A stretch of 64,000 nt of DNA from Nocardioides xinjiangensis. Lineage in GTDB: Bacteria; Actinomycetota; Actinomycetes; Propionibacteriales; Nocardioidaceae. Positions within the stretch are counted from its first letter, which is position 1. Every line of letters begins with the position of its first letter. Positions 3,579 to 12,000 of the stretch are shown here, in pieces. Below the pieces are notes generated by a model that made no database searches, was not told the origin of the DNA, and saw nothing but the letters and a program-made list of their open reading frames with translations. Location of the stretch: positions 186,001-250,000 of the forward strand of contig NZ_JAFMSY010000002.1 in the NCBI RefSeq assembly GCF_017916455.1, given 5' to 3'. A program made the position numbers and the translations under genes.

Positions 3579-5483
3579 TCAGGCGGTGTGGTCGACCTGG
3601 ACCAGCGTCGGGCCGCCGTCGAGGGCGGTGACGTCCTCCACGACGGCGCGGGCGATGGTCTGGGCGTCGAGGCCGATGCGGGCCAGGATGGCGTCGCGCT
3701 TGGCATGGTCGAGGAACTCCTGCGGGATGCCGTGCAGGCGGAAGGGCGTACGCACGTCGGCGTCGTTGAGCGCCTGCAGGAGCGCCGCCCCGCAGCCGCC
3801 GACGCGGCCGTTGTCCTCGACGCTCACCACGAGGCGGTGCTCGCGCGCGAGGTCGATCACGGCGGGGTCGACGGGCTTGACCCAGCGCGGGTCGACCACC
3901 GTGACGCCGATGCCCTGGTCGACCAGGCGGGACGCCACCTCGACGGCTGTGGTCGCCATCGAGCCGACCGCGACGATGAGCACGTCGCGCTCGCCCTCGC
4001 GGACCAGCACGTCGGCGCCGCCGACGCGGTCGACGGCCGGGACGTCGGCGGGCGGTGGGCCCTTCGGGAACCGCACGACCGTCGGGGCGTCGTCGACCTG
4101 CACGGCCTCCTCGAGCAGCTCGTGGAGGCGAGTCACGTCGCGCGGGGCCGCGAGCCGGAGGCCGGGCACGACCTGCAGGATCGACATGTCCCACATGCCG
4201 TTGTGGCTCGCGCCGTCGTCACCGGTGACACCCGAGCGGTCGAGGACGAAGGTGACGCCGCACCGGTGCAGGGCCACGTCCATCAGCACCTGGTCGAAGG
4301 CGCGGTTGAGGAAGGTGGCGTAGACCGCGAAGACAGGGTGCAGGCCGCCCATCGCGAGGCCCGCAGCGGAGGTGACGGCGTGCTGCTCGGCGATGCCGAC
4401 GTCGAAGGTGCGCTCGGGGAACCTCTGGGCGAACACGTCGAGCCCGACCGGGTGCATCATCGCGGCGGTGATCGCGACGACGTCCTCGCGGCGACTGCCG
4501 AGGTCGACGATCGCCTCGGAGAAGTGGTCGGTCCAGATCTTGCCCTTCGGCTTCTCCGCACCGGTCTGGACGTCGAAGGGGCCGGGTGCGTGGAACTGGT
4601 CGGCCTCGTGCCGAAGCGCCGGGTCGTAGCCCTGGCCCTTGCGGGTGATGGCGTGGACGATCACGGGACCGTTGAAGCGCTTGGCGTTGGCGAGGGCCTG
4701 CTCCATGGCGGCGCGGTCGTGGCCGTCGACGGGTCCGACGTACTTCAGGCCGAGGTCCTCGAAGAGCCCCTGCGGTGCGAGCGCGTCCTTCATGCCCTTC
4801 TTGACCGCGTGCAGCGCGTCGTAGGCCGCGTGCCCGATGCCCGGGACGGCGTTGAGGCGCTTCTTGACCAGGTCGAGGACCTGCTCGTAGCGCGGGTTCG
4901 TGCGCAGCGAGGTGAGCGCCGTGGCCAGCCCGCCGATCGTCGGGGTGTAGGACCGCTCGTTGTCGTTGACCACGATGACCAGGCGGCTGCTCCTGGCGAT
5001 GGCGATGTTGTTGAGCGCCTCCCACGCCATGCCGCCGGTCAGGGCGCCGTCGCCGATGACTGCGACGACGTGGCGGTCCTCGCCGCGGATGGCGTACGCC
5101 TTGGCGAGCCCGTCGGCGTACGACAGCGAGGTGGACGCGTGGGAGTTCTCGACGATGTCGTGCTCGGACTCGGCCCGGCTCGGGTAGCCGCTGACGCCGC
5201 CCTCCTTGCGCAGGGTCGCGAAGTCGGCGTGGCGCCCGGTGACGAGCTTGTGGACGTAGGACTGGTGCCCGGTGTCGAAGACCACGCGGTCGCGCGGGGA
5301 GTCGAAGACGCGGTGGATGGCCAGGGTCAGCTCCACGACGCCCAGGTTGGGGCCGAGGTGCCCGGAGTTGGTCGCGACCGTGCGGATCATGACGTCGCGG
5401 ATCTCGGCGGCCAGCTCGTCCAGCTGCTCCGACGAGAGCGCCCGGAGGTCGCCCGGGGTCGCGATCGAGTCGAGGAGTGACAT
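3579..5483 (-). CDS. dxs: 1-deoxy-D-xylulose-5-phosphate synthase
   Basis: 634 residues, full length. The enzyme condenses pyruvate and glyceraldehyde-3-phosphate with thiamine diphosphate, the first step of the MEP isoprenoid pathway. The N-terminal part shows the DXS signature ([26 protein letters not shown]) and the thiamine diphosphate/Mg motif [15 protein letters not shown]. The central transketolase pyrimidine domain has [15 protein letters not shown] with the catalytic-region Glu. A C-terminal transketolase domain completes it. The ATG at 5483 follows a TAGACT -10 box (5492-5497) by eight bases, a leaderless arrangement. From memory, M. tuberculosis dxs1 (Rv2682c) also lies close to the TrkA/dut block found downstream here. 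Confidence 0.97.
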
Positions 5484-5499: not shown

Positions 5500-6438
5500 T
5501 CATGCCAGGTCGTGGACGGCCACCGCCGGCTCGTGGAGGCTGCCCATCCAGACCCTCCCGTCGTGCTCGCGGACTCCCGTGACCATGTGGTAGCCCGGCC
5601 CCTGCTCCGGCGGGGCGAGGTCGAGGTCGTGGACCAGCCGGCCGTCGTCGGCGTACGCCTGCACGCGGATCGTCCGCGCCGGCCTGGGCTGCCACGACTC
5701 GGGGATCCGGGTGATCGCCCGGCGCAGGGCCATCGGGGCCCGCCCGAGCCGCTCCACCAGGCCGTTGACGGGACTCGCGACGCTCACCCAGATGAGGCCG
5801 TCGCTGCCGCGACTGATGTTGTCGGGGTAGCCCGGGAGGTCGGTGACGAGGTGGTCGCGCTCCCCCGCCCGCGGACCGGTGAGCCAGAGGCGCACGACGG
5901 TGCGGCCGCGGCACTCGGCCACGCACACGTAGGACTCGTCCGCGGACAGCGCGACGCCGTTCGCGAAGGCGAGCCCGTCGAGCGCCACCGTGACGGTGCC
6001 GACGGGGTCGCGGCGCAGGAGCCGGCCGGTGCGGGTGTTCCGGACGAAGTCGGCCCTCCACTCCTCGACGCCGTGGTGGAGGGAGGAGTCGCTGAACCAG
6101 ATCGTGTCGTCGGCAGCGACCGCGGCGTTGTTGCAGAAGCGCATCGCGCGCCCCTCGACCCGGTCGACCAGCACCTCCACCGAGCCCGAGGTGCGCGAGA
6201 CCCGCAGCAGCCCGCGGTGCGCGTCGCACACCAGGAGGTGCCCGCTCCCGAGGAGCTCGAGGCCGAGCGGCCGGCCGCCGGTGTCGGCCACACGACGGGT
6301 GCTGCCGGTGGACGGGTCGAGGGCCCAGATCGCCCCGTCCTCGGTGCCGGTGTGGACGAGGCCGTCGGGAGTGACGAGGACGTCCTCGGCCCCCATGGCC
6401 GGGACGGGGTGGACGGTGAGCGTCGGCGCGGAGGTCAT
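5500..6438 (-). CDS. SMP-30 / gluconolactonase / strictosidine synthase-like beta-propeller protein
   Basis: 312 residues with repeated propeller-blade motifs ([54 protein letters not shown]). The segment [18 protein letters not shown] resembles the strictosidine-synthase-like family, whose members are lactonases or esterases. No signal peptide is visible. The substrate is unknown. It ends 17 bases before the dxs start codon on the same strand. I see no clear SD or -10 close to the ATG at 6438, so the start is less certain than the family. Confidence 0.85.
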
Positions 6439-6520
6439 GGCGCCATGCTGGCGTAGAGGTGGTTGTCGAGGCGGGCGGGTACGACGACGCAGCGGTGAAC
6501 CGCCCGACCGTGGCCCGCCC

Positions 6521-6937
6521 TCACATCCGCACCCGGTAGCGACGTCCCCGCAGCGCCTCCTCGACGAGGCCGACCTCGCGGCGTACGCCGAGCAGGCGGG
6601 CGTCCTCGAGCTGGAAGGTCTGCACCGCGGCCCGGACGACGGCCTCGTCGGCGACGTCCTTCAGGTCGCCGCGGATCTCGCTGAGCCCCCGACGCGTGGC
6701 GAGCTGCTGGGCCTCGACGTGCAGGACGGCGAACCGCGCCAGCACGACGACGTGCCGGCGCAGGCCCGTGAACCGGCGGTAGTCGGGCGGGCACAGGTCG
6801 AGCAGCCAGCTGGCCGCCGTGGCCTCCCAGTCCGGTGCGTCGGGCGGACGGACCTGCCTCGGCCAGCCCGGCGGCGCCACCCCCCGGTGCCCCTCGGGCG
6901 GGGTCGGCCGCTGGCGCGGCTGCGGCGGTGGGAACAC
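6521..6937 (-). CDS. Uncharacterized 138-aa protein under an SOS box
   Basis: I do not recognise a characterised family. The protein is Pro-rich at the N-terminus (residues 1-35). A helical body follows with WLLDLCPPDYRR, then LRRHVVVLARFAVLHVEAQ and a closing LVEEALRGRRYRVRM; I recall similar hypothetical proteins in other actinobacteria. There are no membrane segments and no enzyme motif. The GTG at 6937 is chosen because a TATCCT -10 element (6944-6949, minus strand) lies exactly six bases upstream, giving a leaderless mRNA. A perfect 18-bp LexA-type palindrome occupies the promoter spacer, so the gene is probably induced by DNA damage. It follows the yjbQ-like gene by 36 bp. Confidence 0.8.
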   Translation of the reverse strand: MFPPPQPRQRPTPPEGHRGVAPPGWPRQVRPPDAPDWEATAASWLLDLCPPDYRRFTGLRRHVVVLARFAVLHVEAQQLATRRGLSEIRGDLKDVADEAVVRAAVQTFQLEDARLLGVRREVGLVEEALRGRRYRVRM

Positions 6938-6943
6938 CGGCTC

Positions 6944-6966
6944 AGGATATCGAACACGTGTTCGAT
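6944..6966 (-). promoter_or_regulatory. SOS (LexA) box overlapping a leaderless promoter
   Basis: ATCGAACACGTGTTCGAT at 6949-6966 is a perfect 18-bp palindrome. It matches the actinobacterial LexA-box pattern TCGAAC-N4-GTTCGA. On the minus strand it touches the -10 hexamer TATCCT (6944-6949), which is six bases from the GTG start at 6937. LexA bound here would cover the -10/-35 spacer. Both elements sit in the 36-bp gap between two genes. Confidence 0.88.
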
Positions 6967-6973
6967 CCCGCCA

Positions 6974-7378
6974 TCAGCCACCGAGGAAGGACCAGCGCAC
7001 CTCTCGCTCGGCGTTGTCGATGTTGAGGTCGACCAGGCAGATGCTCTGCCAGGTGCCGAGCGCGAGCCGACCGTCGAGCACCGGCACCGTGGCGTGCGGA
7101 GGCACGATCGCCGGCATCACGTGCGACCGCCCGTGGCCCCGGGACCCGTGCCGGTGCCGCCACCGGTCGTCGGCCGGCAGCAGGTCTGCGAGCGCCGACA
7201 GCAGGTCGTCGTCGGAGCCGGACCCCGTCTCGATGATCGCGATGCCGGCCGTCGCGTGGGGGACGAAGACGTGGAGCAGGCCGTCACCCCGGCCGGCGGC
7301 CACCTCGGCGGCGTCGTCGGTCAGGTCGAGCACGACCTCCTCGCCGCCGGTGCGGTAGGAGCGGGTCTCGCTGTGCAC
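6974..7378 (-). CDS. YjbQ / UPF0047 family protein (secondary thiamine-phosphate synthase type)
   Basis: 134 residues, the normal family length. It carries the conserved segments GLLHVFVPHATAGIAIIE, then HGSRGHGRSHVMPAIV and the C-terminal LGTWQSICLVDLN, which form the conserved pocket of this trimeric family. Some members have weak thiamine-phosphate synthase activity, but the in vivo role is unsettled. The GTG at 7378 lies one base beyond the TGA of the upstream gene (TGAG-GTG), so both are read from one mRNA. The upstream gene encodes a thiamine-binding-type protein, which supports a link to thiamine metabolism. Confidence 0.88.
   Translation of the reverse strand: MHSETRSYRTGGEEVVLDLTDDAAEVAAGRGDGLLHVFVPHATAGIAIIETGSGSDDDLLSALADLLPADDRWRHRHGSRGHGRSHVMPAIVPPHATVPVLDGRLALGTWQSICLVDLNIDNAEREVRWSFLGG

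Positions 7379-8989: not shown

Positions 8990-8993
<4 letters not shown>
8409..8993 (-). CDS. HIT-like superfamily protein, uncharacterized
   Basis: 194 residues. Cys62 and Cys65 form a CGTC pair followed by a strand-rich segment ([18 protein letters not shown]). Further on, [22 protein letters not shown] resembles the HIT/GalT-type nucleotide-binding region, though the classical HxHxHxx triad is not evident. It may be a degenerate nucleotide hydrolase or transferase, an assignment by resemblance only. The GTG start overlaps the acn stop codon as GTGA (8990-8993), implying translational coupling to acn. DUF3105 follows immediately. Confidence 0.7.
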
Positions 8994-11884
<2,891 letters not shown>

Positions 11885-11982
11885 CAGCCACATCTCCTCG
11901 GGAGTTCGCGGGTTCACGTCCATCTTGCCGCCGGAGGCAGAACGACGGGAAGGCAGGTGACCCTTAGTTCGAAGCGTCGCAG

Positions 11983-12000
11983 TATCTTGACGTCAAGATA
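11983..12000. promoter_or_regulatory. 18-bp palindromic operator candidate between acn and a kinase-like gene
   Basis: TATCTTGACGTCAAGATA is a perfect palindrome. On the minus strand it contains TTGAC, so it may overlap the acn -35 region. It lies 99 bp upstream of the acn start and 40 bp before the divergent gene at 12040. The binding regulator is unknown. Confidence 0.65.

Follow-up and report, generated by a model that had tools for sequence, protein, structure and literature searches.

Which signal controls the small gene that lies directly behind a perfect palindrome in Nocardioides xinjiangensis, and what might its product do? We addressed both questions for a stretch of 64,000 nucleotides of this genome (hereafter the window), in which an earlier note had read the gene, here called gene X, as an SOS gene with a leaderless promoter. 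The comparisons set out below indicate that gene X is most probably a member of the SOS regulon under LexA, which is a statement about its regulation and not about the function of its protein, and that it is very probably a real DNA-damage response gene that has hitherto been uncharacterised. Sequence by itself could hardly give stronger support for a LexA-controlled leaderless gene. What is new is the combination of an SOS regulon member with a protein family that has no curated name. We found no experiment on N. xinjiangensis and, among the literature matches listed (outside subscription journals and supplementary tables), recognised by title or abstract no work on gene X or on the SOS response in Nocardioides. 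The features of the locus are collected in Table 1.

Table 1. Features of the gene X locus and its surroundings, with positions counted from the first letter of the window.
Feature	Position	Strand	Basis or remark
Gene X, 138-aa protein, no curated family name; PPGWP...PPG.P.W arm and alpha-helical hairpin	6521..6937	-	ORF, family alignment, AF2
-10 hexamer TATCCT	6944..6949	-	Sequence; TANNNT spacing in orthologous promoters
LexA box (SOS box), 18-bp perfect palindrome ATCGAACACGTGTTCGAT	6949..6966	.	Sequence, conserved in orthologs
16-bp core of the LexA box, TCGAACACGTGTTCGA	6950-6965		
YjbQ/UPF0047 family gene, upstream neighbour	6974..7378	-	Pfam PF01894, TIGR00149; stop 7 bp from box
3' relic of a deleted NUDIX hydrolase gene, 17 residues then stop	6435..6488	-	Overlaps start of the SMP-30-like gene
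SMP-30/strictosidine-synthase-like protein, downstream neighbour	5500..6438	-	
dxs	3579..5483	-	With acnA, flanks gene X in several families
acnA (aconitase)	8990..11923	-	With dxs, flanks gene X in several families

The 18-bp perfect palindrome described in the earlier note was recovered at exactly the same positions (6949-6966), and its proposed fit to the actinobacterial LexA box withstood closer comparison. It contains TCGAAC-N4-GTTCGA, lies directly against the -10 hexamer and agrees with 12/12 of its fixed LexA positions; in PMC9380542 the actinobacterial LexA motif is given as tCGAAC-N4-GNNCGa. Within the 64 kb of the window, no 16-mer other than its core fits the whole set of 12 fixed LexA positions, and from base composition the exact TCGAAC-N4-GTTCGA is expected 0.0008 times per 64 kb and 0.05 times per genome. 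A stricter pattern, TCGAACRNNYGTTCGA, was found at 3 places in the 3.7-Mb genome, compared to 0 for the reversed control. When up to two mismatches to the LexA motif were allowed, the genome gave 337 matches vs 190 in the control, and thus weak matches mean little; the box upstream of gene X is exact. Since the window also holds other perfect palindromes (four of 18 bp and one of 22 bp), it is the LexA match and its conservation that carry weight, not palindromy. The presence of several such palindromes of at least 18 bp would favour reading this one as the site of another regulator or as a product of chance, a reading to which we give hardly any credence in view of the match to the motif in PMC9380542, the identity to the box of imuA'-imuB and the conservation among orthologs, both described below. 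Separately, we observed that a perfect 18-bp palindrome at 11983-12000, TATCTTGACGTCAAGATA, lies ~60 bp upstream of the start of the acnA ORF; it is perhaps the operator of another regulator.

Because the same motif fronts lexA, recA, the DUF6504 gene and imuA'-imuB in this genome, it very likely serves as an SOS box in N. xinjiangensis. Upstream of lexA (PF01726, PF00717), four boxes with one mismatch lie within <200 bp, while recA is preceded by a single one-mismatch box and the DUF6504 gene (L053) by an exact one. The box of imuA'-imuB (L001) agrees with the core in the window at every one of its 16 bases. Pfam domains confirmed the assignments of LexA, RecA, ImuB (IMS) and DUF6504; the Pfam scan gave no match for the gene that we take to be imuA' from its position.

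Further copies of the motif were noticed elsewhere in the genome. A GntR/UTRA regulator has an exact TCGAAC-N4-GTTCGA (L054 1501-1516; G000 C4:129226) ~32 bp ahead of its longest ORF. In addition, four copies of TCGATCATGTGTTCGA, a sequence that departs from the LexA box at one position, were seen (L057 and L058 near 1501, G000 C4:226 and C5:201448), two of which (L057 and L058) have TCGATCATGTGTTCGATTCTAGGTG in common. These two may face DUF222/13E12-type genes, so that LexA sites may be carried by a repeat family.

The promoter geometry proposed for gene X, with a TATCCT -10 that abuts the palindrome and stands six bases before the GTG, was also borne out, coordinates included. On the minus strand, TATCCT shares one base with the palindrome and is followed by six bases and then by the GTG at 6937, which starts a reading frame (6521-6937) that is open over 138 amino acids. 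This arrangement (TATCCT-6-GTG) has the -10 spacing of a leaderless gene and leaves no room for a Shine-Dalgarno sequence. To place it among its orthologs, we aligned 135 distinct box-bearing promoters, drawn from 156 loci, on automatically chosen start codons. TANNNT was located 6 (91 promoters) or 7 (8 promoters) bases 5' of the start in 99/135, and at any other offset from 0 to 24 it was seen 0-3 times each; in 36/135 promoters, with this automatic start choice, TANNNT was not seen at 4-9 bases. Within the 99, the distance from the end of the box to the -10 was 0-2 bases in 50 and 7-10 bases in 44, and in 5 the two would overlap, which probably reflects a wrong start call. The distance from -10 to start therefore stays constant while the position of the box shifts, which supports the leaderless promoter that had been claimed. 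The -10 thus follows the start codon, and the box in turn follows the -10, which is the pattern to be expected of a LexA-controlled leaderless promoter, and this spacing supports the prediction that the transcript of gene X starts at or beside the GTG, i.e. that it is a leaderless mRNA.

Gene X was matched in 38/96 relatives, a count that includes the window genome and one weak match (G029, E 9.5e-4, 29% identity) that was left out of the ortholog set, and the family was present in 151/394 genomes sampled from the class. A total of 184 genomes thus had a match (151 + 38 minus 5 shared), and 153 loci of these were scored for boxes. The earlier note had let its reading stand or fall in part with conservation of the palindrome upstream of orthologs, and a box with 11-12 of the 12 fixed positions was found just upstream of 31/31 same-genus orthologs, including the window's own gene. 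Among the best 80 of 402 named stretches, which are mostly from Nocardioides, 77/80 loci scored 11 or 12 and 3/80 had no box; the named relatives of the protein in this set included N. cavernae (96% identity), N. lacusdianchii, N. pinisoli and others. As a control, we scored 1,278 intervals upstream of other ORFs, and 16 reached a score of 11; of these, 13 were within 250 bp of the start of gene X and contained its own box, and 2 were in L052, a locus that had been chosen for its box.

Across the wider sample, the box was present in 88/153 family members from 30 taxonomic families. The scores formed two classes, 10-12 (88 loci) and 6-8 (65 loci), with none equal to 9. Sorted by family (f1, f2, f20, f22, f36 and f50 are code labels of taxonomic families in the sample), boxes were found at 45/45 loci in f1, 33/33 in f20, 5/6 in f2, 4/6 in f36 and 1/1 in f50, and at 0/62 loci in the remaining 25 families. 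Control of gene X by a LexA box is lineage-restricted, as 25/30 sampled families have the gene without a box. Within the genus, gene X itself is accessory, being present in 31/59 genomes and absent from 28/59. We also scanned the box-less loci for a PafBC-type motif (spacers 7-9) and saw no sign of it (1/65 at one mismatch vs 1/65 for shuffled sequence). With respect to a mobile origin, no phage record and no viral contig matched gene X. Matches were found on five actinomycete plasmid records (best identity 46%), one of which, from Nonomuraea gerenzanensis, has an 11/12 box at a distance of 20 bases upstream of its match; scores on the remaining four were 8-10.

A weakly resolved tree of X (121 columns) requires at least 7 changes to explain the distribution of the box, which suggests that LexA control was acquired or given up several times. 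Since 65/153 family members have no box, the basic role of the protein need not be tied to the SOS response. The 7 or more changes would suit a protein with a housekeeping role tied to acnA and dxs, for example in central metabolism or in the supply of iron-sulphur or isoprenoid compounds, that was put under LexA in some lineages, as would the location of X directly between acnA and dxs in 13 of the loci mapped, from 9 families, 8 of which are box-less; both genes are also close to X in the window. We consider such a role possible but not probable: gene neighbourhood is weak functional evidence here, and in f20 neither acnA nor dxs was seen in the 5 loci mapped, yet the box was kept in 33/33. 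Other genes were seen near X in f20 and f22. In 11/33 f20 loci, several of which span <2 kb upstream of X, a gene for a DnaQ-like exonuclease lies 0.5-0.8 kb upstream of X and is read from the other strand. In f22 (L108 3362-5839 and similar), an RpiR/SIS-type regulator lies upstream of X, and the gene downstream encodes a large protein with weak matches to PAS and response-regulator domains.

A further neighbour that bears on the reading of the box is a NUDIX gene. With 1-3 tandem domains, it was found downstream of X in 29/45 f1 genomes and in 55/80 named loci (best 80 of 402), counted within the downstream flank covered, which reached 3 kb at most and in many loci 1.5 kb, and it often began ~20-40 bases past the X stop. 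Read-through from X into this gene is possible, and the box might serve the adjoining MutT-like gene, with X as a passenger heading a nucleotide-sanitising SOS operon. We judge this to be very unlikely and have rejected NUDIX as the real SOS target. A leaderless -10 of its own precedes the NUDIX gene in 36/52 distinct X-NUDIX spacers, and none of the 52 contained a LexA box (best score 8). When 19 X-less genomes of the same genus were checked for NUDIX, 15 gave loci, 3 had no match and 1 had only a weak match. All 15 loci had the NUDIX gene in its expected place, beside dxs or the SMP-30 gene, and in 14/15 no box with a score >=10 was found near it. In the fifteenth (L296), 118 bp separate an exact box at 2567-2582 from the NUDIX start downstream of it, but this box fits a divergent gene, for which the sequence reads box-G-TAAGAT-GAGGC-ATG. 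This is a second LexA-leaderless arrangement, in a Nocardioides genome without X; the N-terminus of the divergent gene resembles, as we take it, a 13E12/DUF222 HNH gene.

The window genome provides the reverse case, as it has lost the NUDIX gene and kept X together with its box. Where N. cavernae has 829 bp, the window genome has 16 bp in their stead; the last codons of the NUDIX gene survive as a relic at 6435-6488, and the tandem NUDIX protein had no match in this genome at E<=1e-8. The NUDIX genes of relatives end in IVPAFLRSDLYASMAP (L145) or IVPAFLDSDLYASMAP (L146); N. cavernae and other relatives retain the gene. Outside f1, no NUDIX gene was found beside X. Overall, the box goes with gene X and not with NUDIX.

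Probable control by LexA leaves the function of the protein of gene X to be considered. The earlier note had assigned it no known function, and this held for the family members scanned, none of which exceeded a curated cut-off: among 68 diverse members, Pfam was matched by none at E<=0.01 and NCBIfam by a single one, a stray match (0.0018). For the window protein, the best Pfam match (E 0.046) was far below the cut-off and NCBIfam gave none. In a set of 17 members, PADLOC gave no match and PHROGs a best E of 0.013, in one member; the Pfam family ThcOx was matched by 6/17 (best E 0.0041), which we took as chance. Trp25, Pro26, Pro50 and Leu66 are invariant in the 68 sequences and are surrounded by the motifs PPGWP, PPG and LRRHP.

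The second AF2 model, a confident one (pLDDT 94, pTM 0.80), has an extended N-terminal arm and short helices, followed by a long antiparallel helical hairpin. Foldseek searches against PDB and BFVD, with both AF2 models run against PDB, returned nothing below E 0.4 (best E 0.41), and the best VIA Z scores (8.5 for the first model and 8.0 for the second) were no higher than those that unrelated helical hairpins give. The matches were generic helical hairpins; those to topoisomerase I and cohesin STAG, at E 0.4-2, were not counted as fold relatives. Sequence profiles of X against PDB gave best E values of 0.54 and 0.19. Neither the sequence nor the fold of X contained a pointer to a DNA-related function, and its hydropathy gave no hint of a membrane helix (19-residue Kyte-Doolittle mean at most 1.24). 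The window protein has a pI of 10.8; the family median is 8.6, with 25/68 members above 9, and since the family is not uniformly basic, charge alone argues poorly for DNA binding.

We also asked which other SOS-box genes accompany X. In 55/59 f1 genomes, X and DUF6504 were either both present or both absent (28 with both, 27 with neither, 3 with X only and 1 with DUF6504 only). On the DXS tree, these amounted to only 3 well-supported independent pairs; for this reason co-occurrence of X, DUF6504 and ImuB is not claimed as a link, and the joint pattern may be explained by descent. Gene X is independent of ImuB, because at E<=1e-20 ImuB found no match in 15/31 X-bearing genomes of the same genus. 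Among the 59 f1 genomes, the 16 without an ImuB match all have DUF6504.

We tentatively favour, at low confidence, a role for X as a small soluble helical-hairpin adaptor or accessory factor in DNA-damage tolerance, which would bind a partner via its Pro/Trp arm; X is not expected to be an enzyme or a membrane-bound division inhibitor. In our ranking, this damage-tolerance adaptor comes first, a housekeeping protein later recruited to the SOS response second and a checkpoint protein third. SulA, YneA, ChiZ and DivS are small LexA-controlled SOS inhibitors of cell division, of which ChiZ and DivS are actinobacterial and are membrane proteins. As a checkpoint protein, X would delay replication or cell division until repair in lineages that have no inhibitors of the SulA/YneA type. 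Its small size, its predicted control by a LexA box and its absence from part of the genus are in keeping with such a role, as is the statement of Stratton et al. (PMC9380542) that Streptomyces is without clear homologs of known division inhibitors. Against it, X has no sign of a membrane helix, unlike ChiZ and DivS. A family that is box-less in 25/30 sampled families would also be odd for a checkpoint, and we think this role unlikely. A bolder and rather doubtful reading is that X founds a new actinomycete family of SOS effectors, a hairpin protein that is made only after damage and directs a step in tolerance or checkpoint control for which there is no known actinomycete factor; the protein itself would be older, and its LexA control would have been gained or lost in one lineage after another.

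For the regulation itself, the arrangement suggests a simple sequence of events. In undamaged cells, LexA would occupy the box at 6949-6966 and repress gene X, and RNA polymerase would be unable to open the promoter because the box takes up the bases immediately upstream of the -10; bound LexA may also stop read-through from yjbQ. Upon DNA damage, activated RecA (RecA*) would lead to self-cleavage of LexA and the site would be freed, permitting induction of a leaderless mRNA that starts at or beside the GTG. With one palindrome, one -10 and a leaderless start, this promoter is simple enough for a clean SOS reporter. Since the box is present in some lineages and absent from others, the family also offers a natural experiment on the recruitment of a protein into the SOS regulon.

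Compared to known systems, gene X shares its motif, tCGAAC-N4-GNNCGa, with the LexA regulon of Streptomyces venezuelae, the targets of which include lexA, recA and dnaE2 and in which most genes with a LexA site have no known function (PMC9380542). X differs in its distribution, in that f22 (presumed to be Streptomyces) had a box at 0/9 X loci examined, out of 24 genomes with a match. MutT/NUDIX hydrolases are neighbours of X in many Nocardioides, but X itself is not a NUDIX protein. Like the SOS division inhibitors ChiZ, DivS and YneA, X is small and predicted to be LexA-controlled; unlike them, it shows neither a membrane helix nor a Pfam family. The DUF6504 gene of the same genome (L053) resembles X as a small LexA-box gene without assigned function, although its Pfam family is unrelated. 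In imuA'-imuB (L001) of the same genome, ImuB carries the IMS domain and the 16-bp LexA box, TCGAACACGTGTTCGA, is identical to that of gene X.
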